From a virus: DNA of 46,917 nt. The position numbers and the translations under genes are program-made. The DNA lies in IMG/VR virus record IMGVR_UViG_3300020021_000001, positions 1-46,917 of that record; one strand, 5' to 3'. Positions within the stretch are counted from its first letter, which is position 1. The number at the start of each line of letters is the position of its first letter. Of the stretch, positions 167-44,014 are shown piece by piece. Under the pieces are notes generated by a model that was not told the DNA's origin, did not search any database, and worked only from the letters and a program-made list of their open reading frames with translations.

Positions 167-489
167 AGCCGAAGGACGCGAAAGTTTTTCTGACTTACGA
201 TCAGGCCGTCAAGCGTCTGCCGAAGGGCGATCGCGTGCACACTTTCGTGAACCCGCTGGGAATGCTGGTGGGTGCGGATTGGCCGCGAGAAGAACTCCTG
301 AGGCAGCTCGCCAAATACGAAAAGACGATTGAAGAAACAGGCGCTATGGCGATGCAGATGAATCATGGGCTCGCCTTCAACGATGGAGAGCGGGTCGTGT
401 TTGTCGCAACCAAACCTTCTGCAAACAAACGAGTTGGGGATATAGGGGAGAAGAAAACTGTGATTTCAAACAAGCCCCAAGCGGGGTAA
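163..489 (+). CDS. Conserved small phage protein, function unknown
   Basis: 108 residues, starting at the ATG that overlaps the previous stop. The N-terminal half carries an HTFVNP segment followed by LVGADW about ten residues later, and then a charged helix and an MNHGLAF segment. I have the impression that small phage proteins with this HTF-N-P / GADW pattern are widespread and uncharacterised; that is recollection, not a search. The last 25 residues are rich in Lys, Asn and Ser and look disordered. No signal peptide or membrane segment. It belongs to the early/accessory gene run that crosses the contig ends. Confidence 0.75.
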   Translation: MKPKDAKVFLTYDQAVKRLPKGDRVHTFVNPLGMLVGADWPREELLRQLAKYEKTIEETGAMAMQMNHGLAFNDGERVVFVATKPSANKRVGDIGEKKTVISNKPQAG

Positions 490-4652: not shown

Positions 4653-4834
4653 CGCTCATCACATTCGCGAATTCGTGCAAGACAAAACATCTCACGCGCC
4701 TGGAGATGGAAGAACTGTTCAGTTTCTGTTTCCACGTTCATGACCATGACGCCTGTTCGCCCGCAGTGCCGATCTACTGGGAACGGGTGGGCACGGCGCG
4801 AAACAACTTTGGTCAGATGCGCTGGGTCAACTGA
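4646..4834 (+). CDS. Small hypothetical protein between terL and portal
   Basis: 62 residues, starting inside the last codons of terL and ending at the TGA that overlaps the portal ATG, so it is bracketed by coupling signals. A short helix (TRLEMEELFSFCF) is followed by a His/Asp/Cys segment HVHDHDAC, which could bind metal, and a WERVG segment. No family recognised. A gene in this slot may assist packaging or simply be a small accessory insertion. Confidence 0.6.
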   Translation: MVTLITFANSCKTKHLTRLEMEELFSFCFHVHDHDACSPAVPIYWERVGTARNNFGQMRWVN

Positions 4835-6939
4835 TGGGCATTCAAGAATCAATCCGCAATCTCTTCGCGCCGCAGAAAGAAGAATCGCTTTCGATGTCGG
4901 AGATGACTTCGCTCTCAACGAAAGCTGCCGTAGATTTCCTGAGCCAGATTCCGGAAATCAGCGAAGCCTTTACCCAGGCAGACATTGAACTCGCGTTAGA
5001 CGATCGCGGCTGGCTGGTGGGCGGCAAGCGCATGGCCGGGGAACTCGATCCGCTCAGCCGTCAAGTGCAAGTCAATCGCGCGCGTTATTACTGGCTGCGA
5101 GATCCTTTAGCGAAACAGGCGGTCAGACTTTGGACCGATTACGCCTTCGGAGATACAGCAGTTACCTGGACCTGCGAAGAAGACTCCGGCGTTGAAGACA
5201 GACTGAACAAGTTCATGAATGACCGCCGCAATCGCAGAATCACTTCGCGGGCGGGCATGAGACGGATGTCGCAGCGGTTGTTAGTCGATGGGGAAATCTT
5301 CTTTGCCCTGTTCGACGATGGCACGATCCGCTATTTCGACTGCCTGCAAATCACTGACATCATCTGCGATCCCGACGATGAAGACACAGTAAAGGCTTAC
5401 AAGCGAGAGACGGCAGGCGCAAACAATACAGCTTCGAAAACTCTGTATTACCAGCCGTGGGATTCAGACGACGAGACGCCCGATGTAGTCGATCCGGCCA
5501 CAAAGAAGTCATTCACGCTTGAGACCAAAGTCAAGATCTATCACCTGGCCTTTGACGCACTCGACAAGCGCGGCAATTCGTTGTTCGGGGCGTGCTCGGA
5601 TTGGTCGCGCGAACACAGGCGTTTCATGATTGCCCGTGTGGCTCTTACCCAAGCTCTCAGTCGGTTCGCCTACAAAGGCACCGTCAAGGGTGGCCAGAAG
5701 ATTGTCGATTCAATCCGCTCCAAGATGGAATCGACGTTTGCCCAGACTGGTTTGTCAGGGGGCACCGAAAAGAATCCACCCAACGCTCCTGGCGGGACGT
5801 GGTTGCAAAACGAAGGCATCAACCTCGAAGCCATGCCGCGGACCACAGGCGCGAACGATGCCAAAGCCGACGCGGACGGACTGAAACTCATGGTCTCGGC
5901 GGGCACCGGAATCATGCTGCATTATTTTGGCGATCCGAGCACCGGAAATCTGGCAACTGCGACAGCGATGGAATTGCCGATGCTGAAAATGTTCGGCGCC
6001 TATCAGCAGTTCTGGAAAGATGCGTGGCGGGATATTTTCTCAATCGTGCTCGAAGAAGATCCGGACAAGCCGCTCGAAACTATCGCCATTGAGATGCCGG
6101 CCATCATCGAAGACGACCTGGCTGCACTGGGAACGTTTATCACGCAACTGACTACTGCATTCCCGGAAGCCAAAGTGCCGGAAGTTCTGCAGATGTGCCT
6201 CACGTCAATGGGCGTGCAAAACATCAACGACGTGATGGGAACGATCGAGAAGCAGAAAGAAGCTAACGACGCGCTGGCCGCGAAGAATGCCGCACTGCAA
6301 GCGAAAGCTATAGCAGCGAAACCAATCGGGGCGAACGGAAACGGCGCAAACAACGGAACACCTCCGGATGGTGGAGTTGCAGGAACCAATACCGACACGA
6401 CCGAAGCGGTCTCAGAAGCTGACGATCTGGACCTCTTGGAGGGGTGGGTGACGATCAATGGCACTCACATCGAAATAGGTTCAGATGGAAATATAGAAAA
6501 GGGCCCGGCGGCTCTAAAAGATGCACAAGGCAGCGATGAACACTACCACGGCACGTCCGAGAAGAACGTCAAGTCCATTTTAAAAAACGGTCTGATAGCA
6601 CATGAACCAAGGGGTGCGGGGGGAAAGGCTACTTATGTTTCCCGCAGCAAAGATCTTGCCTTCTCATACGGTACCCAGTCAGGCAAAGGCAACGTTGCTG
6701 TAGTCGTGGTTAAGGGTGAAGGGTTAGAGCACGGGACGGGCGCTTTTAAGGATGTAGGTATTGCCAAAGGAGGAGTAAAGCCGAGCAGTATTTCGCGTAT
6801 CGAGATATATCGGCGTGGTGCTGCTAAAGGCGAAGCTCCGCTGAAGGTTCATTATCCGAGCAGTTCGAAGGAATCCTATTCGGAAGCGGTGTCGCAGTTA
6901 ATCAACAAGCTGGACGAACTGACTGAGGCACTGCGATGA
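4834..6939 (+). CDS. Portal protein with C-terminal ADP-ribosyltransferase-like domain
   Basis: 701 residues. Residues 1-490 are a dodecameric-portal-type protein (RYYWLRDPLAKQAVRLW, later TGIMLHYFGDPSTGNLATAT), forming the DNA gate at the prohead vertex and the terminase dock. A low-complexity linker (about 490-530) leads to a GWVTING...GP segment (about 537-555) that in my recollection precedes toxin-like domains in phage head proteins. From about 570 a second fold appears: HYHGT with His570/His572, SILKNGL, then TYVS with Tyr601, an A-x-x-YG motif, and a GGVKPSSIS ending. This order matches PARP/KptA-like ADP-ribosyltransferases (H, Y, third-position acid). The third catalytic residue is unclear. 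Function of the extension is inference. Confidence 0.85.
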   Translation: MGIQESIRNLFAPQKEESLSMSEMTSLSTKAAVDFLSQIPEISEAFTQADIELALDDRGWLVGGKRMAGELDPLSRQVQVNRARYYWLRDPLAKQAVRLWTDYAFGDTAVTWTCEEDSGVEDRLNKFMNDRRNRRITSRAGMRRMSQRLLVDGEIFFALFDDGTIRYFDCLQITDIICDPDDEDTVKAYKRETAGANNTASKTLYYQPWDSDDETPDVVDPATKKSFTLETKVKIYHLAFDALDKRGNSLFGACSDWSREHRRFMIARVALTQALSRFAYKGTVKGGQKIVDSIRSKMESTFAQTGLSGGTEKNPPNAPGGTWLQNEGINLEAMPRTTGANDAKADADGLKLMVSAGTGIMLHYFGDPSTGNLATATAMELPMLKMFGAYQQFWKDAWRDIFSIVLEEDPDKPLETIAIEMPAIIEDDLAALGTFITQLTTAFPEAKVPEVLQMCLTSMGVQNINDVMGTIEKQKEANDALAAKNAALQAKAIAAKPIGANGNGANNGTPPDGGVAGTNTDTTEAVSEADDLDLLEGWVTINGTHIEIGSDGNIEKGPAALKDAQGSDEHYHGTSEKNVKSILKNGLIAHEPRGAGGKATYVSRSKDLAFSYGTQSGKGNVAVVVVKGEGLEHGTGAFKDVGIAKGGVKPSSISRIEIYRRGAAKGEAPLKVHYPSSSKESYSEAVSQLINKLDELTEALR

Positions 6940-18994: not shown

Positions 18995-19404
18995 GTGTCG
19001 GAATCACGCCGCGCTTTGCCTACAATGCCGGATTGGGTATTGTCGATTTCACGCCCGCGATCCCGCCGACCAAGAAAACGCCATTCGCTCCGCTCGAGGC
19101 TACGCGCCACGATTCGATTACCAGTACCGGGCTGAAGCAGTCAGTGCTCGAGCGGATCGATGTGATGACCGTACTTTCGTTTGAAAATGTTCCAGAATCC
19201 GATATGGCCAGCTGGCGCGATTTCATGGCCTGGACTCTGGCGGGAAATCAATTTACCTATTATCCGGATTCAACCGACGAATCAACTTCGACTGAATACA
19301 CTCTCGAAAATACCGACTGGACGCCCAAATGGAATTCTCTGCAAAACTACAGCTTCACTTTCAAGATGCGGACCTATGTCGGCGGATCTGAGCACTTCTC
19401 TTGA
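18991..19404 (+). CDS. Distal tail protein candidate
   Basis: 137 residues, beta-rich, with NYSFTFKMRTYVGG at the end and a DMASWRDFMAWTLAGNQFTYY core. Genes directly after the tape measure usually encode the distal tail ring that connects tube to hub. ATGA overlap with the tape measure; stop overlaps the TTG start of the hub gene. Confidence 0.6.
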   Translation: MSVGITPRFAYNAGLGIVDFTPAIPPTKKTPFAPLEATRHDSITSTGLKQSVLERIDVMTVLSFENVPESDMASWRDFMAWTLAGNQFTYYPDSTDESTSTEYTLENTDWTPKWNSLQNYSFTFKMRTYVGGSEHFS

Positions 19405-20795
19405 TCGCAGTTCCGCCCAATTACGCGACAGCCTTACAAGCTTTCACCGCCGGGAAGATCATTTACACCGTCGAGATTGCAGGCTATGGGCGTGTGTTCT
19501 CAAATGATTCCGGTTACGGTAATGCCCCCTGGCTAGGCGCAATCGATGACATGAGTGTAACCATTGAAGACGTAGACGGCGGCGCCGACCAGATTTCCTT
19601 TGGCTTCTCCGTGCAAGATCGCGGGCAACTCATCACTGGAGATTTCCCTAGCTTCACCTTCGAAGGCAAAGCAGTCACGATCAAGACGGGCTTTCCGGGA
19701 ATGGACTACGCGGACTTTGCCGTGCTGTTCAACGGGCTGGTCGATTCGGTGTCTTCGATCAATTCGAACCTTGACTACTACTTCAACCTGCTCGACATCT
19801 CCGACGTGCTGGCCAAAGTTATCTTTCCCTTGGGGAATGACGGCAAAAATGCCCCCTCGAGCGATAATCCTCTGACCTTAAACGCTCATCCGCTGGATAT
19901 CCTGCTCAACATTCTGTTAACCGAGGTCGGGCTCGATTCCCCACTGGTCGATTCCGCCAAGATCGAAGCTTACCGCGACGGGCCCTTTGCCGGAATCCAG
20001 TTTATTTACGAAGTGAGCCAATCTCCGGCGGCGCTCGATTTCATCACAGCGCAAATCATGAAACCACTCGGAGGCTATGCATGGATAAACTCGAAGGGTC
20101 AGGTGACCGTCAACTTCTTCTACCCGCTCGCCGGCCCCGTCGCGGTGTTCAACTTCAATCCCAGCGTTTGGACCTCGATTCCCTCGGCCGATCAAATCAG
20201 CTCGAATGCTTCCAGGGACATGATCAATACGGTTCAATTTCAATTCGACAAAGACGATAGAGACTCTGGTGGAAGTGGCAATTATTTGTCGCAAGACACA
20301 GAGGAGTATGGGCCGTCCGTTTCGCTTTACGGAGTTTATGGGGAGACCGTAATTCAGGCGGACGGCCTGCGCTCAGCGTTTCAGGGCTTCTTCATTTCGA
20401 AACTTATTTCCCGTCTAATATTTCTACGCTACGGGCTGAAAACTCTTCTCATCGATTCAAACGCCGCAGACTCGCTGTGGAATTCCGTACTACTCGAGCC
20501 CGGCGATATCGTCAGTGTGACGCACGATAAAATCCCTGACCGCAAGAACGGCGTCATGGGCATCACCAACAAGCTGTTCGAAATTATCTCGAAAGCCGTT
20601 CACTTCACCACCGGCACAGTCACATATTCCATGCTCGATGCCAGCTATCTCTCAACCTTCGGATTCTTCAAGATCGCGCCGACCGGCGAAGGCGATTACA
20701 CGACAGTGAGCGCGGGCGACAAAGCCAAGTACGAATTCTTCTCGAACGACAGCGCCGAATATTCGAACGGCGACGCGGGCAACGTGCTGGGCTAA
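19401..20795 (+). CDS. Tail hub / baseplate protein
   Basis: 464 residues from TTG 19401 (TTGA overlap with the preceding stop). Begins IAVPPNYATALQAFTAGKIIYTVEIAG and contains SVTIEDVDGGADQISFGF and FNGLVDSVSSINSN, consistent with the multi-domain beta-rich tail hubs that follow distal tail proteins. The C-terminus is rich in Asp, Gly and Asn. No peptidase or lysozyme motif was seen, so a purely structural role is likely. Confidence 0.65.
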   Translation: MIAVPPNYATALQAFTAGKIIYTVEIAGYGRVFSNDSGYGNAPWLGAIDDMSVTIEDVDGGADQISFGFSVQDRGQLITGDFPSFTFEGKAVTIKTGFPGMDYADFAVLFNGLVDSVSSINSNLDYYFNLLDISDVLAKVIFPLGNDGKNAPSSDNPLTLNAHPLDILLNILLTEVGLDSPLVDSAKIEAYRDGPFAGIQFIYEVSQSPAALDFITAQIMKPLGGYAWINSKGQVTVNFFYPLAGPVAVFNFNPSVWTSIPSADQISSNASRDMINTVQFQFDKDDRDSGGSGNYLSQDTEEYGPSVSLYGVYGETVIQADGLRSAFQGFFISKLISRLIFLRYGLKTLLIDSNAADSLWNSVLLEPGDIVSVTHDKIPDRKNGVMGITNKLFEIISKAVHFTTGTVTYSMLDASYLSTFGFFKIAPTGEGDYTTVSAGDKAKYEFFSNDSAEYSNGDAGNVLG

Positions 20796-20804
20796 GTAAA
20801 TGCG

Positions 20805-22889
20805 ATGAGCAATCTGGTTCTCAATTCGATACCGGGATTCTCCGACCTCCCGGACGTGAACCTCGAAGCCGAGAGGCTTGCGCTCGGTCTCGAAGTGGCG
20901 AAGATTGCCTCGAATGCGGCCTTTGGCATGGTCCGGCTGGAAGTCTTTCAGGGCATCTACATCGATGGCGATTCTGTGACCCTGCCCGTCTCCCCGGTCG
21001 ATGAATACAACTACGCGCGCGAAGAACTTACTTATGTCTGGGCGCTTTACAACACCGACAATCAATCGTCAGGCTGGATCACCGGACCGGATTCGCTCTG
21101 GTATGCAGCATGGCTGGTCGATCAGAACACAGGCTTAGTGTCGTGTGAAGAACACTACCGAACCTCCGCCAATCCGCCCAAGTCAAACATCTCGAACGAT
21201 GGCCAGTTGCTGGTCTTCACTATCGCTCAAAGACTGAAGACCGAACTGGTGATGGACGCGATTCCGAGTTTCGATCCTATCGTCCAACCTGAACTGGCAA
21301 CTGATGCGGCATGGTCGGAGGACCGGGCACAAGCGCTGAACCACAACGCCAAATTCGGCGTGGTCTCTACCGAAGCAATCTACATGGGAGAATTCGTAAC
21401 CGGCGACACCATTCCTGAACCCGTTTCCCCGGTCGATGGATTCGTTTACGACTACAGCACGGTTGTGTTTCTGCCTTCGTGGCGCTGGACGTGTTTAGGA
21501 ACTAGATTCTCTCAGCCAGCCGTATCACTTGGGCAGCTCGGGCCCATGCAGCTTGCCATCAATGGGACCGGCGCCGTGACTTTGAATGTGAGCATGTTCA
21601 ATTCCGGCCTGACCAATGAATCGACTTTCGGCCGGATCTCGGTAGTCGCACTTTGCCAAAGGCCTTTAAACCGGCTGGTCGTGCCTGGCACTACAGCACC
21701 GTGGAAGTACACAGCGTTTCCGGTCATAGGATTTAACCCAAGCTTCCCGAACGACACCAATTATCCAACTCAGCCGCTATCCACCCTGCCGGTAGTTTTA
21801 CCGGTGGCTTTACAAGCCGGAGACACGGTCACAGTGACTGCCGTAGGCTCGGTCACCTACACGGTCGGCTCTGGCTTTACGGGCGGTCCTGACGGAATCC
21901 CCGGAACAGCCGGACCTCCCAACCCTGACGTATTACAGACTGGCGGCACAACTATCGGCAAGCCGGGATTGCTCGGGGCTTTCACGGACGATAACGGTGA
22001 AGTAATTCAAGTGGTGGGCGTGGGTTCTTCTGCGGTCCTGACCGTGCCATCCGGCGCTACACGTTTTCAAATGGGTATTGATGACACAGACTTTTTAAAC
22101 CATACCGGAAGATTCATTGCGCTGGTGGCCTGGTCGCCTTCGTCGCGCTTCCCGCTCTCCGATGATTTCACCGATCTGGATATTTACGATTTCATGCCCG
22201 GAGAAGTACTGAAAGCTTCAGACATTGCCCAACTCAGTCTGAACTGCAACGAAGCCGCGCTATCGCCAGAAGTTTTCGGCCCGTTCACCAAAGGTGACGG
22301 AGATTCGCTTTCACTTCCTGTCAGCGCGATTGATGGCTATACCTACGCCCGTTCTGAACTGGCTTACTTCTGGGAATGGTCGGACACCACGCCAACCAGT
22401 TCAGGGCATACCATGCGCCCGGCGATTCTCAGCGCGTCGATCAATAATTCGAACGGGGTTTGCAGTGTGAAAGTTTACAACCTGGTGGATGGTGGGCCGA
22501 TCACGGAGCAAGGCACAGGCTTTGCGACTATTCGCGTGACGATTCTGGCTATGAGACAACAGCAAGTTTCGTTCGGCAGTTTCACGCTGACGCAGGTAAT
22601 CGTCAACGGCTCGACCACGACTTACCTGGGCACGATCCAAGGCGGGGCAAATAATGAGTACGCTGGGCTGAGTTTCACCATCGCCGGATTCTCGAATGCC
22701 GGAAACAATGTGACCATCAAAGTCTTGAGTTCAACGGCGGCAAGTCTGGTTTGCGCGACAACGACGCAGGTCAATGAGACCACTTCGGCGACGGCGGCAA
22801 ATTCTTCGAGCACGGCGGCGCCTACAGATGCAGCTACAACGCCAGCGGATATTCCTGGAGATGGCGCGGATCAGATTAACGGGGTCTAA
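20805..22889 (+). CDS. Tail adhesin with three internal repeats
   Basis: 694 residues, almost entirely beta-strand and loop. A recognisable unit recurs three times, at about residues 47-88, 190-225 and 488-535: a GD-S/T-LPVSPVD-x-YxYARxEL-like core (GDSVTLPVSPVDEYNYA; GDTIPEPVSPVDGFVYD; GDSLSLPVSAIDGYTYA) followed by aromatic strands. This suggests three diverged copies of one domain. The C-terminus is a Ser/Thr/Ala-rich disordered tail. Likely a tail-tip or baseplate protein contacting the cell surface. Confidence 0.65.
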   Translation: MSNLVLNSIPGFSDLPDVNLEAERLALGLEVAKIASNAAFGMVRLEVFQGIYIDGDSVTLPVSPVDEYNYAREELTYVWALYNTDNQSSGWITGPDSLWYAAWLVDQNTGLVSCEEHYRTSANPPKSNISNDGQLLVFTIAQRLKTELVMDAIPSFDPIVQPELATDAAWSEDRAQALNHNAKFGVVSTEAIYMGEFVTGDTIPEPVSPVDGFVYDYSTVVFLPSWRWTCLGTRFSQPAVSLGQLGPMQLAINGTGAVTLNVSMFNSGLTNESTFGRISVVALCQRPLNRLVVPGTTAPWKYTAFPVIGFNPSFPNDTNYPTQPLSTLPVVLPVALQAGDTVTVTAVGSVTYTVGSGFTGGPDGIPGTAGPPNPDVLQTGGTTIGKPGLLGAFTDDNGEVIQVVGVGSSAVLTVPSGATRFQMGIDDTDFLNHTGRFIALVAWSPSSRFPLSDDFTDLDIYDFMPGEVLKASDIAQLSLNCNEAALSPEVFGPFTKGDGDSLSLPVSAIDGYTYARSELAYFWEWSDTTPTSSGHTMRPAILSASINNSNGVCSVKVYNLVDGGPITEQGTGFATIRVTILAMRQQQVSFGSFTLTQVIVNGSTTTYLGTIQGGANNEYAGLSFTIAGFSNAGNNVTIKVLSSTAASLVCATTTQVNETTSATAANSSSTAAPTDAATTPADIPGDGADQINGV

Positions 22890-23780
22890 ATGGCGAACAA
22901 TCCGAAAAATTATAACGACACTTCGCCAGCAATTCCTTCAGGCAAGGCCGGAGTCAAATGGCAGGCAGCTACTCCGGACGTTAACCCCGCAGTGGTTCGC
23001 GATGTCTCTGCCTATGTAGATCCTTGCACGGCAACCGCGCCTGGAGCAGTACCTACTCCTCCGAACGATGCCAGCCAGTTTCTTGACGGCACCGGAGTGT
23101 TCTCAACTCCCTCTGCGTCTCTTAGCAATCCTATGACGACGCCCGGAGATTTGATTGTCGGCGGAACTTCAGGCACACCGACGCGCTTAGGAATTGGTTC
23201 TGCCGGTCAGGTGCCAACCGTCGTTACTGGCGCAATTGCGTGGCAGACTCCGGCGGGCGGCGGTGGAGGAGCGTCACCACTGACGAACGTGGTTCTGATT
23301 CCCGCGTTTACCGGCGCCAACAATTACGGCACTCCTGGCAATTTCACGGTTTTTGGAAAACTTGCGTCAAGACTTCTCGTCCTGAATCCGACTACCTGGA
23401 AGTTCTCAATCGTTTCGGGTGCAGCAACTGGGCTTCTAGGCGCGGCTGTGGTTTATCGAACCTTGAAAGATAGCGCCACGATCATCGACTCGACGGCCGT
23501 AACCTTCTCCGGGATTTCTACCGTCTCACTGCCAGCCGCGGAAGTTTTCTCCGACTCGATTGCGCTCGCCATAGACATGATTCATGACTACTACATTGCA
23601 GTCTGGTTCGATGGCGCGGGCGGGGTTGCCTCCATCCAGAATTTCTCCACTCCGACCAATGTGCCTGGAGTGATTGGCGGGTACATCTCGGGAAACAGCA
23701 CAACGCTGACGGGCGGCGGCTCAATTCCTGCGCTGACTTCGGTCGAATGCATTCTTAGCCAGGTGGTGGCACTATCGTGA
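22890..23780 (+). CDS. Tail fibre or receptor-binding protein
   Basis: 296 residues. The N-terminus (NPKNYNDTSPAIPSGKAGV) is followed by a Pro/Thr/Gly-rich shaft with DASQFLDGTGVFSTP and a GDLIVGGTSGTPTRLGIG segment, a common phage fibre motif, and a poly-Gly hinge (AGGGGG). The C-terminal ~160 residues form a beta domain, probably the receptor-binding head. It starts immediately after the adhesin stop and ends overlapping a glycosyltransferase gene. Confidence 0.7.
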   Translation: MANNPKNYNDTSPAIPSGKAGVKWQAATPDVNPAVVRDVSAYVDPCTATAPGAVPTPPNDASQFLDGTGVFSTPSASLSNPMTTPGDLIVGGTSGTPTRLGIGSAGQVPTVVTGAIAWQTPAGGGGGASPLTNVVLIPAFTGANNYGTPGNFTVFGKLASRLLVLNPTTWKFSIVSGAATGLLGAAVVYRTLKDSATIIDSTAVTFSGISTVSLPAAEVFSDSIALAIDMIHDYYIAVWFDGAGGVASIQNFSTPTNVPGVIGGYISGNSTTLTGGGSIPALTSVECILSQVVALS

Positions 23781-25234
23781 GATTGATTTTATGCATTGTC
23801 AGTTGCCACGCGCTGGCGGCAAGGCGTCAGGCGATTCGCGAAACTTGGCTGCCTCTGGTGCCTCGGGAAATGGATTGCAAATTCTTTCTCGGGCGCGGGC
23901 AGCATGCGACACTTCAGCCGGATGAAATCGTGCTCGATGTAGATGACTCCTACCGCGGACTGCCGGCAAAGACGAAAGCAATCGCACGCTGGGCTCTGGC
24001 GCATGGGTATAGCTATCTCTGCAAATGTGATGATGACGTTTACGTGCAACCGGACAGGCTTCTGGCTTCAGAATTTGCCAAGTTGGGTAACTACGTTGGA
24101 CGGAAACGCGGGCCATCGGGCGGACAGTCGGCGCCGTATGCTTCAGGATTCTGCTACTGGCTGTCGAACTTCGCCATGAAAGCTTTGATTGACGCACCGC
24201 TGACGGACGATCCGGCAGAAGATCGCTGGGTGGGAAACAGTCTTCTCGCCGCGGGAATAGAGTGCGCGGCTGATTATCGTTACGTGGTCATCAATTCAAC
24301 CCGCTGTGCTGTGTCTCATACCGAAGGGCCGCGAAAAGGAAACACAGTTATTTCAGCTTGCGAATTCAATCCCGAGAAGATGAGGCAGACGCATAAAGAA
24401 TGGCTAACTCTGACCTCCGGCGATGATTGTCTTTTACCGGACGGCCCGTTCGCAAAAGTCTGCGTGCTGGTGAAAACCTTTCTGCGCGACGGCTACTTAC
24501 TGCGCACGATCGAAGGCCTGCAGAAGAATCTACCGAGCGCGAAGATTGTCATTGTTGATGACGGGCGGGAATCGAATTTCAAAATCTCCTGGTATGCGAA
24601 ACTTCGTCGCCTTGGACACATTTGCCGATGGATGCCGTTTGATTCCGGATTTGGGGCAAAAGCGAATGACGGAGTACGAGCCTGTGACCGGCCTTATGTT
24701 TTGATTGCGTCAGACGATTTCAACTTCGAAGATTCGGCGGCGGCGGAAGGCGTGCTGAAGATGGTAGAAATTTTGGATCAAGATCCGCAGATAGCGGTTG
24801 CCTCAGGACGAGTAAACGGCAATCCCTATGAAGCGACTCTCGAACTCAAGGGCTCGGAATGCATCGAGCGCAAAGGCGTCTACCAAGACCAGTACGGGCG
24901 CGGCGTCGTCCACAATTCCCGCTATTATGTCACCGATCTGACCGTGAATTATTCTCTCATCCGGCGGGAAGTCTTCAATGAAATCAAGTGGGACGAAGAC
25001 GTAAAGATTGGCGGCGGCGAGCATGGAGCGTTCTATATCGACCTGAAGCGGGCAGGCTTTAAAGTCGCTTGGGTCGAAGGCGTGAACATCAACGAACTTC
25101 ACGGTACGACCGACTGGTCAAGCGTGGAGTATCACAAGTACAGAGCGCGGGCTCGCCAGCCGGGAAGAATCTGCCTGAAACGCCGTGGCATAGATCGCTA
25201 TCACCTTATGGGGGGAGAAGTTGAACTCACCTAA
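23777..25234 (+). CDS. Two-domain glycosyltransferase: GT31-like plus GT2/GT7-like
   Basis: 485 residues from GTG 23777. Residues 1-220 carry the hallmarks of beta-1,3-galactosyltransferase family GT31: RRQAIRETW (16-24), FFLGRG, VDDSYRGLPAKTKA, the metal-binding CDDDVYV with Asp85-87, a YASGFCYWLS segment and E148-D149. Residues about 226-470 are a second GT-A-like domain with IVIVDDG, ASDDFNFED, an internal RREVFNEIKWDEDVKIGGGE and HGAFYID. A GT31 domain followed by a second GT domain recalls the layout of chondroitin synthases. The enzyme could modify tail fibres or the host surface; the donor is unknown. Coupled to a fibre gene. Confidence 0.82.
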   Translation: MRLILCIVSCHALAARRQAIRETWLPLVPREMDCKFFLGRGQHATLQPDEIVLDVDDSYRGLPAKTKAIARWALAHGYSYLCKCDDDVYVQPDRLLASEFAKLGNYVGRKRGPSGGQSAPYASGFCYWLSNFAMKALIDAPLTDDPAEDRWVGNSLLAAGIECAADYRYVVINSTRCAVSHTEGPRKGNTVISACEFNPEKMRQTHKEWLTLTSGDDCLLPDGPFAKVCVLVKTFLRDGYLLRTIEGLQKNLPSAKIVIVDDGRESNFKISWYAKLRRLGHICRWMPFDSGFGAKANDGVRACDRPYVLIASDDFNFEDSAAAEGVLKMVEILDQDPQIAVASGRVNGNPYEATLELKGSECIERKGVYQDQYGRGVVHNSRYYVTDLTVNYSLIRREVFNEIKWDEDVKIGGGEHGAFYIDLKRAGFKVAWVEGVNINELHGTTDWSSVEYHKYRARARQPGRICLKRRGIDRYHLMGGEVELT

Positions 25235-25883
25235 GCTCCTCGTCGCCATCGTCTCCTGTGCCCGCGACCGCGACACCCACGAAGCAGTCCGGCAGACCTG
25301 GGCGACAAACCGTCAAGGCCTGGCAGACTACAAATTCTTTATGGGCAAAGGCGCGGCCACGGATGACGAAGTTAGTCTCGGCTGTGATGATTCTTATTAC
25401 GGGCTGACCGATAAAGCTCTGGCAACGTTCGAGTGGGCGCTTGAAAGAGGCTACACCCACGTCATGCATGTCGGACGGGATACTTATGTGGACGTGCCGA
25501 AACTCTACCATGCCGGACTCTGGCAAGCTGACGAGCGCCTGATTCACTACGCTGGGAACGGTGGAGGAACGCATGGCTGGCAAGGCGGATTTTGCAGTTC
25601 GCTGCCAGACGATAAGGGCCGCTGGAATTACGCATCCGGGGGAGCAGGATCCTGGCTGACAGCGCATGCCATGCGGATAATTATTGATTCTCCAATCCGG
25701 CACGAAGCTGACGATTTAATGTTTGGCTGGGCTCTCGGCTCAGTAGGAATTTATCTGTTTGACGATCCGCGATTTGCCAAGCATGGCAGTCGTTTAGTTG
25801 GAGAACAGTTCTCTCTGCATCTCTCGCGCGGACCGGGCAACTACGATCCGCAGTGGATGTACGACGCGCACGCCAATTCCTGA
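25221..25883 (+). CDS. GT31-like glycosyltransferase paralogue with degenerate DDD motif
   Basis: 220 residues from TTG 25221, which overlaps the end of the preceding gene and follows GGGGGGAGAAG. It is a clear paralogue of the N-terminal domain of that gene: EAVRQTWA, FFMGKG, CDDSYYGLTDKALATFEWAL, then VGRDTYV where the neighbour has CDDDVYV, a GAGSWLTAHAMR segment and ADDLMFGWAL. Two of the three metal-coordinating Asp are replaced (Gly85-Arg86-Asp87), so it may be inactive, use a different donor, or act as a partner, as chondroitin polymerising factor does for its synthase. Confidence 0.78.
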   Translation: MNSPKLLVAIVSCARDRDTHEAVRQTWATNRQGLADYKFFMGKGAATDDEVSLGCDDSYYGLTDKALATFEWALERGYTHVMHVGRDTYVDVPKLYHAGLWQADERLIHYAGNGGGTHGWQGGFCSSLPDDKGRWNYASGGAGSWLTAHAMRIIIDSPIRHEADDLMFGWALGSVGIYLFDDPRFAKHGSRLVGEQFSLHLSRGPGNYDPQWMYDAHANS

Positions 25884-43184: not shown

Positions 43185-43562
43185 ATGCTGAAAGAATTAG
43201 ACGATTACGACTGGGCAGAGGTTTTTGGCGAAGGTTCGAGTATGGCCGCGATTGTTCCGCAGCCTGCTCCGGGGTTCGCCGGTTCGACCGCGACGTTTGG
43301 CCGCGAGGACGTGGCCGAGATTTCCCAAATCGCCCAGGGAGAGAACGACGGGCCGGACTGGATCGTGTACGGATTGCTCAAGGATGGGCGCTGGTTTGTG
43401 GCACGCGGCGGATGCGATTACACCGGCTGGGATTGCCAAGCGGGGAATTCCGGCGACGTAGCGGGGTCGAAAGAAGCAATCATCAAATTCGGCCTGACTG
43501 CCGACGAACGCGACAGATTCCAAGTTGTGGTTCCCGTAGACCAGCCCAAGGAGAAAGTGTGA
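43185..43562 (+). CDS. Conserved phage hypothetical protein
   Basis: 125 residues with GGAGG. Contains ENDGPDWIVYGLLKDGRWFV and RGGCDYTGWDCQAG, which in my recollection occur in small conserved proteins of many phages. Beta-rich; function unknown. Its stop overlaps the next start (TGATG). Confidence 0.65.
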   Translation: MLKELDDYDWAEVFGEGSSMAAIVPQPAPGFAGSTATFGREDVAEISQIAQGENDGPDWIVYGLLKDGRWFVARGGCDYTGWDCQAGNSGDVAGSKEAIIKFGLTADERDRFQVVVPVDQPKEKV

Positions 43563-44014
43563 TGATCTACATTTTTGACATTGATGGCACTTTGGCGGAT
43601 TTATCGCACCGGCTGCATTACATTCAACAGAAACCAGCCGATTGGCGCTCGTTCTTCGCGGGCTGCCCAGACGACAAGCCGATTGTTGACATGGTGTATC
43701 TGGCGCGGCTGATTGAGCGTGCGGGCCACGTTGTGGTCTACGTGAGCGGTCGCAGCGACGAATGCCGAGAGGCTACTCGGGATTGGCTGAAGAAGCATGA
43801 TCTGCCCGCGCCCGCCCGGAAAATATACATGCGTAAGGCCGGAGACCACCGGCAGGACAGCCAAGTAAAGGCCGAGCTGCTGGATGAGCTGATTGCCGAT
43901 TTCCCGCCTAGCCATCACCAAATTATCGGCGTGTTCGAGGATCGCCAGCAGGTGGTGGATATGTACCGCGCCAAGGGCCTGCGAGTGTTCCAAGTTGCGG
44001 AAGGGAAATTCTGA
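43562..44014 (+). CDS. HAD-family phosphatase, polynucleotide 3'-phosphatase-like
   Basis: 150 residues from ATG 43562. HAD core: FDIDGTLADLSHRLHYI with the two Asp (6 and 8), a second motif VVVYVSGRSDEC, Lys in the MRKAGDHRQDSQVK region and GVFEDRQQVVDMYRA. The length and the SHRLHYIQQKPADWRSFF cap match the 3'-phosphatase domain of phage polynucleotide kinases. It could repair nicked DNA or tRNA; no kinase domain is present. Confidence 0.82.
   Translation: MIYIFDIDGTLADLSHRLHYIQQKPADWRSFFAGCPDDKPIVDMVYLARLIERAGHVVVYVSGRSDECREATRDWLKKHDLPAPARKIYMRKAGDHRQDSQVKAELLDELIADFPPSHHQIIGVFEDRQQVVDMYRAKGLRVFQVAEGKF

Follow-up and report, generated by a model that had tools for sequence, protein, structure and literature searches.

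GT31 is a family of beta-1,3 glycosyltransferases, and the domains of the Escherichia coli K4 chondroitin synthase, K4CP (KfoC), are of the GT2 type. The single chain of the animal chondroitin synthases CHSY1 and CHSY3 starts with a GT31 domain and ends with an inverting GT-A domain of the beta-1,4-N-acetylgalactosamine (GalNAc) type, and CHPF is their GT31-bearing partner; K4CP and heparosan synthase likewise have two GT-A domains per chain, neither of which is GT31, while B4GALNT1 of family GT12, a beta-1,4-GalNAc transferase, is not fused or adjacent to GT31. Here, we analysed IMG/VR viral record IMGVR_UViG_3300020021_000001, a soil phage stretch of 46,917 bases (hereafter the window), which encodes, right behind its fibre-like genes, a two-domain glycosyltransferase (P0001) composed of a GT31 domain and a GT12-like domain, and a stand-alone GT31 partner (P0002). 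Both open reading frames lie where the original prediction, made from the letters of the sequence, had placed them.

Phage-borne glycosyltransferases are common but seldom assignable to a job. Phage transferases and virion glycosylation are already known kinds of thing: mycobacteriophages carry glycans on structural proteins, namely capsid and tail-tube subunits (Freeman 2023, as cited in PMC12619734), whereas fibres are proposed here. Gene order, gene overlap, presence and absence in sister phages, and a conserved partner all link the uncharacterised combination of GT31 and GT12-like domains in the window to fibre genes, and we consider it moderately likely that the pair forms an optional cassette, expressed late, whose enzymes glycosylate the virion, most likely its tail fibres. 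In the limited literature covered, we found nothing relevant on phage GT31 or on GT31 combined with GT12, and no description of the fusion, its GT31 partner or the link to fibre genes.

The two domains of P0001

Sequence comparison gives good support for placing the first domain of P0001 in the GT31 enzyme family. Pfam Galactosyl_T (GT31, PF01762) matches residues 15–97 (E 3.4e-12; 47 bits, cut-off 23). When 13 phage GT31 domains were combined in a profile and searched against the PDB, the significant matches were to GT31 enzymes only, over the full domain length, with B3GALT6 first (4.5e-18), followed by B3GNT2 (3e-14), C1GALT1, B3GALT5, CHSY3 and Manic fringe. The GT31 identity put forward in the original prediction is upheld, and an ordinary GT2 domain is ruled out by both sets of matches. 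The phage domains share whole-domain homology, predicted fold and the DxD, xED and Gly-loop landmarks with the CAZy GT31 enzymes (B3GALT6, B3GNT2, C1GALT1, B3GALT5 and Fringe), from which they differ in being viral, soluble and fused to a GT12-like domain.

B3GNT2 shows what these motifs do (PMC7948508): of the three Asp residues in DDD, one lies toward the donor sugar site (the first), the second binds ribose and the third, together with a C-terminal His, binds the metal, while the Asp of the xED motif (Asp333) is the base. The original prediction had described the GT31 signatures of P0001 as unusually complete, which holds for DDD and xED but not for the C-terminal His, absent from all 18 distinct fused GT31 domains. 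Since a Glu is invariant at this place in fusions with the GT31 domain first and the GT12-like domain second (A-B fusions), a Glu of the E196 type may fill the role of the His, a further difference from the CAZy enzymes. Other GT-A enzymes, including MGAT1, also lack the C-terminal His (PMC7948508), and the assignment of P0001 to GT31 therefore rests on homology and fold.

The second domain (domain B) is matched by Pfam Glycos_transf_2 at residues 229–403 (E 3.1e-8, 34 bits against 23.3), in line with the original claim of a fusion to a second GT-A-like domain. A five-member domain-B profile finds B4GALNT1 as its best and sole strong sequence match in the PDB (E 3.3e-18, ~190 residues), with the motifs KTFLR and DD-F-F in common; the next match is the much weaker one to K4CP (1.7e-5). 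The match establishes homology to B4GALNT1; as the Pfam name is Glycos_transf_2, we use 'GT12-like' as a label. Unlike B4GALNT1, domain B is fused or adjacent to GT31 and has no membrane anchor: no membrane segment is predicted in P0001 or P0002, and neither contains a strongly hydrophobic segment.

The AlphaFold model of P0001 has a predicted local distance difference test score (pLDDT) of 84.5 and a predicted template modelling score (pTM) of 0.64, the latter leaving the relative placement of the domains uncertain. Foldseek places CHSY3 at the top, spanning both domains with a root-mean-square deviation of ~20 Å, and gives other good matches to B4GALNT1 (E 7e-14), K4CP, LH3 and heparosan synthase. 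The predicted fold is generally like that of two-domain GT-A enzymes and does not make P0001 a chondroitin synthase. The original prediction saw in the pair a mirror of chondroitin synthase and its polymerising factor, and had proposed structure prediction of both proteins. The likeness may hold in a looser sense, as far as a beta-1,3-type GT31 domain and a beta-1,4-GalNAc-type domain share one chain and a GT31-bearing partner goes with them; it does not extend to the C-terminal domain, which is GT12-like and not GT7 (no GT7 Pfam match was found on P0001), to the middle domain or membrane anchor of CHSY1/3, both absent here, to the two-domain arrangements, which do not superpose, or to a partner without DxD.

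The GT31 partner P0002

P0002 is 30% identical to P0001 (E 2e-19). Its own Pfam GT31 score is below the cut-off (16.8 against 23); its AlphaFold model (pLDDT 88.7) has a GT31 fold, the first 38 Foldseek matches being nearly all GT31 enzymes, with B3GalT6 at E 1.7e-11. The full DDD is missing and reads GRD, with only the last Asp kept, a difference from the CAZy GT31 enzymes, and the original prediction had regarded P0002 as a decayed paralogue for this reason. It is a real homologue, but the decay is contradicted by its membership of a conserved subfamily that keeps the residues equivalent to its D87, D165 and H200. Of the stand-alone phage GT31 domains, 65 in number, 64 have the third Asp, 63 have the base Asp and 42 have the first Asp; the C-terminal His is aligned in 39, the C-terminal part being unalignable in many others. 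The last Asp is the only DDD position kept family-wide among phage GT31 domains, and the repeated loss of the first two Asp residues argues for a variant and not for decay; a lost DDD does not equal decay in this family.

The GT31 tree separates the fused domains from the partners that keep only the last Asp and the C-terminal His (xxD/C-His partners) by a 97/96 branch, indicating that P0002 is no recent copy of P0001 and ruling out a recent duplication. By sequence, P0002 is a member of an old, conserved 'xxD + C-His' subfamily and probably an active GT31 transferase.

A partner of this type always accompanies the fusion, and P0002 has lost the two Asp residues whose B3GNT2 counterparts make contact with donor sugar and ribose, as would be expected if it were a catalytically dead scaffold for P0001 in the manner of CHPF and CHSY. 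We regard this as rather unlikely, since the metal-binding Asp, the C-terminal His and the catalytic Asp are kept in P0002 and in all 12 xxD companions of A-B fusions, and since the last Asp is the only DDD position kept across the family in any case. Human CHPF, in contrast, is a polymerising factor in which DxD and further donor-binding residues are missing (PMC12748766); the phage partner also differs from CHPF in having a single domain.

Recurrence beside fibre genes and the proposed function

Viral contigs were scanned with domain-B motifs alone, the five domain-B seeds having originally been found via GT31. The scan returned 40 loci, with GT31 within 8 kb in 39 and fused in 20; after removal of duplicates, 35 loci remained, 34 with GT31 and 16 fused (14 A-B and two in the reverse order, B-A). 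With the window, the A-B set comprises 15 loci, and 12 of them are preceded by the tail and fibre genes that also precede the cassette of the window. Where the contig continues for ~2 kb or more beyond an A-B fusion, as it does in 12 cases, an xxD/C-His partner always follows; the remaining three contigs stop within ~1.6 kb of their fusions. A 100/99 branch divides the A-B from the B-A forms in the domain-B tree and points to two or more independent fusion events, and the existence of fusions in either order is good evidence for joint action of the two domains. The combination recurs in dozens of uncultured phages.

The closest relative of the window is phage L049, the capsid of which is 68% identical. 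Its fusion (L049:13890-15470) is 43% identical to P0001 (487 columns, E 2e-115), and its genes run in the order tail protein, fibre, P0003 homologue, fusion, NAD-dependent epimerase, GT31 partner (with WAD at the DxD position). A GalE-like epimerase, below curated cut-offs, lies between fusion and partner in both L049 and L093, a hint that the donors could be uridine diphosphate (UDP)-Gal or UDP-GalNAc.

Querying viral contigs with P0001 or P0002 singly gave no result, and the sole tblastn match among cultured phages was a weak one to domain B, in Salinibacter phages. The matching protein (L092:4992-6110) is annotated as hypothetical and occurs in 168 records of cultured Salinibacter phages; it is distantly homologous to domain B, lacks GT31 and offers a culturable model for the domain. 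Among the cultured Acidobacteriota phages examined (Tunturi 1, 3, 4 and 5), the annotated 'galactosyl transferases' of Tunturi 5 are not GT31 by the phage GT31 profile.

The genes of the cassette are closely packed with the fibre genes, as the original prediction had noted. P0001 begins within the stop codon of the fibre-like gene P0003, the two sharing four bases (GTGA); the end of P0001 and the start of P0002 overlap by 14 bases, and GGGGGGAG lies directly 5′ of the TTG start of P0002. From these overlaps we infer that the three genes are likely translationally coupled.

Sister phages L047, L048 and L051 have tail and fibre genes homologous to those of the window, and a profile search of their whole 40–49 kb contigs found no GT31 or domain B, while the same profile picked up GT31 in control records. 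The fibre gene is followed in these phages by apparent lysis genes, read from sequence. The cassette is most likely an optional late module.

GC skew is positive across the cassette and mostly negative in both flanks, a mild sign of a separate origin. Together with the sister phages that lack the pair, the skew would fit selfish or accidental cargo that sits between the tail genes and the lysis genes and has no particular target here. We give this possibility little credence, since gene order, architecture and catalytic motifs are kept across phages so divergent that fusion orthologues are 43% identical, and such conservation needs selection.

As to where the cassette came from, the P0001 GT31 domain falls within a wide radiation of viral GT31 sequences; the tree included only two from eukaryotes, both on long branches. 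Within that scope a recent eukaryotic capture is not supported, and the phylogeny proposed in the original prediction goes against its term 'eukaryote-like' in the sense of recent eukaryotic origin. That prediction had also raised the prospect of many close phage homologues with a different known function; many phage homologues were found, none with a known function. The GT31 family occurs in two of 396 Acidobacteriota genomes, one occurrence being a phage-like contig, which rules out GT31 as a normal gene of Acidobacteriota hosts. This contig, from a Bryobacterales metagenome-assembled genome (L019), carries GT31-GT2-GT31 followed by apparent lysis genes, and is the only lead to Acidobacteriota as host of the window phage.

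The fibre target is suggested by the start of P0001 inside the P0003 stop codon, by the shared upstream genes of the A-B loci, and by the sisters that have these genes without the cassette. Further support comes from relatives described below (the B-A fusion beside a bacterial injection system, the L088 homologue behind a tail-fibre gene and the prophage GT2-GT31 fusions), from the epimerase genes of L049 and L093, from the predicted solubility of both enzymes and from the mycobacteriophage precedent. From these observations we infer what the cassette might do, including its activity, sugars, linkage, acceptor and biological benefit. The cassette would be switched on with the late genes and, being translated alongside the fibre genes, its enzymes would meet fresh fibre protein in the cytosol. 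These soluble enzymes would draw on host UDP-sugars: P0001 would act as a two-domain inverting transferase, its GT31 and GT12-like domains each adding one sugar in succession, and P0002 would prime, cap or extend the chain with another sugar. The resulting glycan could act as a shield for the receptor-binding end of the virion or tune its properties. If true, phages build complex glycans with enzyme families best known from animals, and the hypothesis is concrete and testable with two small soluble enzymes.

Several points weigh against fibre glycosylation. The slot behind the fibres could be a common site for accessory genes between tail and lysis genes. The C-terminal part of the large fibre-like protein P0004 has the richest Ser/Thr stretch of 40 residues among the 53 open reading frames of the window, and at 45% this enrichment is modest. 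The missing C-terminal His makes the metal dependence of the fused GT31 domain uncertain, and the acceptor and activity of the cassette are deduced from its genes. Furthermore, the unfused domain B and GT31 of larger phages (e.g. L098, L102 and L125–L131) lie in glycan-gene clusters distant from tail genes, and the link of domain B and GT31 to fibres is therefore not universal.

The enzymes could instead alter the surface polysaccharide of the infected or lysogenic host, so that the phage receptor is hidden and superinfecting phages are kept out, as temperate-phage glycosyltransferases often do, and the window has an integrase. This is unlikely, as both enzymes are soluble by prediction, the genes are fixed in the late fibre-lysis region across many phages and not in the lysogeny region, and neither a GtrA/GtrB flippase nor a membrane transferase of a Gtr serotype-conversion cluster was found among the 39 window proteins scanned, a subset of its open reading frames. 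The same scan detected no base-hydroxylase or hydroxymethyl-pyrimidine gene, which, with the late tail-lysis position and the action of the closest homologues on glycans, makes it highly improbable that the sugars are added to modified phage DNA bases for restriction evasion, although some phage transferases do so (Pyle 2024, as cited in PMC12619734).

A more ambitious version of fibre glycosylation, which we hold to be doubtful, is a viral polysaccharide polymerase, in which P0001 would alternate beta-1,3 and beta-1,4 transfers and P0002 would prime or cap. The fibres would then be dressed in an animal-like chain of the chondroitin or ganglioside type by a combination assembled independently of animals, and as part of the same joint claim the related contractile injection systems would dress their own fibres likewise.

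Locus features and wider relatives

The window contains phage genes for terminase, portal, capsid, tail and integrase. Features of the cassette and of the genes upstream are collected in Table 1.

Table 1. Positions of the glycosyltransferase genes, their motifs and the preceding tail and fibre genes in the window
Feature	Position	Strand	Evidence or remark
Tail protein	19401..20795	+	Conserved upstream of cassette, also in sister phages without the glycosyltransferases
P0004, large fibre-like protein	20805..22889	+	Homologue upstream of 12/15 A-B fusions
P0003, fibre/tip-like protein	22890..23780	+	Homologue directly upstream of fusion in L049, L094, L105
P0001, two-domain glycosyltransferase	23777..25234	+	485 residues, GTG start
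P0001 layout: GT31 residues ~1–210, ~13-residue linker, GT12-like residues ~223–484			Hidden Markov model domain bounds
P0001 GT31 DxD motif, D85-D86-D87	24029..24037	+	DDD in 18/18 aligned fused GT31 domains
P0001 GT31 xED motif, A147-E148-D149 (catalytic base Asp)	24215..24223	+	Asp in all fused domains
P0001 C195-E196, at position of the GT31 metal-binding C-terminal His	24359..24364	+	Glu invariant in 15 A-B fusions
P0001 GT12-like domain B, motifs KTFLR and SDDFNF (DxD)	24443..25231	+	Profile match to B4GALNT1
P0002, stand-alone GT31 partner, 'xxD + C-His' subfamily	25221..25883	+	220 residues, TTG start
P0002 G85-R86-D87 (VGRD87; last DxD Asp kept, GT31 metal ligand)	25473..25481	+	GT31 alignment
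P0002 A163-D164-D165 (xED catalytic base position)	25707..25715	+	GT31 alignment
P0002 H200 (C-terminal His, GT31 metal ligand), in SLHLSRG	25818..25820	+	GT31 alignment; PMC7948508

One relative lies beside a bacterial injection system. In G082 (L041, L045, L046, G082:C44), the other of the two Acidobacteriota genomes with GT31, an extracellular contractile injection system (eCIS) locus has at its end a B-A fusion and a 955-residue putative transferase. The locus is recognised by an eCIS core domain (E 3e-22), an AAA ATPase, and sheath-, tube- and baseplate-like genes read from sequence. It is possible that these transferases glycosylate the injection-system particle. Another Acidobacteriota genome, G359 (L086–L088), encodes three proteins in which a distant homologue of domain B is joined to a sulfotransferase-like C-terminal part. 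The gene for one of them, in L088, follows a tail-fibre and LamG-like gene, and phage fibres bearing a sulfated glycan are a possibility here.

In prophage records L008–L010, a Thr-Gly-repeat (mucin-like) gene ends two bases before a GT2-GT31 fusion gene. Its product reaches 57% Ser+Thr over 40 residues and, judging by composition and position, may be a natural O-glycan acceptor. Other viral relatives cluster with GT11 domains, guanosine diphosphate (GDP)-mannose dehydratase, UDP-galactopyranose mutase and heptose-kinase-like genes. In one phage protein (L003:7235-8818), two GT31 domains are fused in tandem, and in a related record a UDP-galactopyranose mutase gene (L044:12503-13699) is seen upstream of the tandem GT31. 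Giant GT31-containing multi-domain glycosyltransferases of ~1,400–2,000 residues are encoded on Rhodobacterales plasmids (L089–L091), with sulfotransferase genes near two of the three.

Two further genes of the window merit mention. Residues ~560–630 of the portal protein (4834-6939, phrog_10963) resemble PARP and RNA 2′-phosphotransferase and may form an ADP-ribosyl domain, and positions 43412-44014 encode a PNKP-like HAD phosphatase (Pfam HAD_PNKP, E 2e-32).

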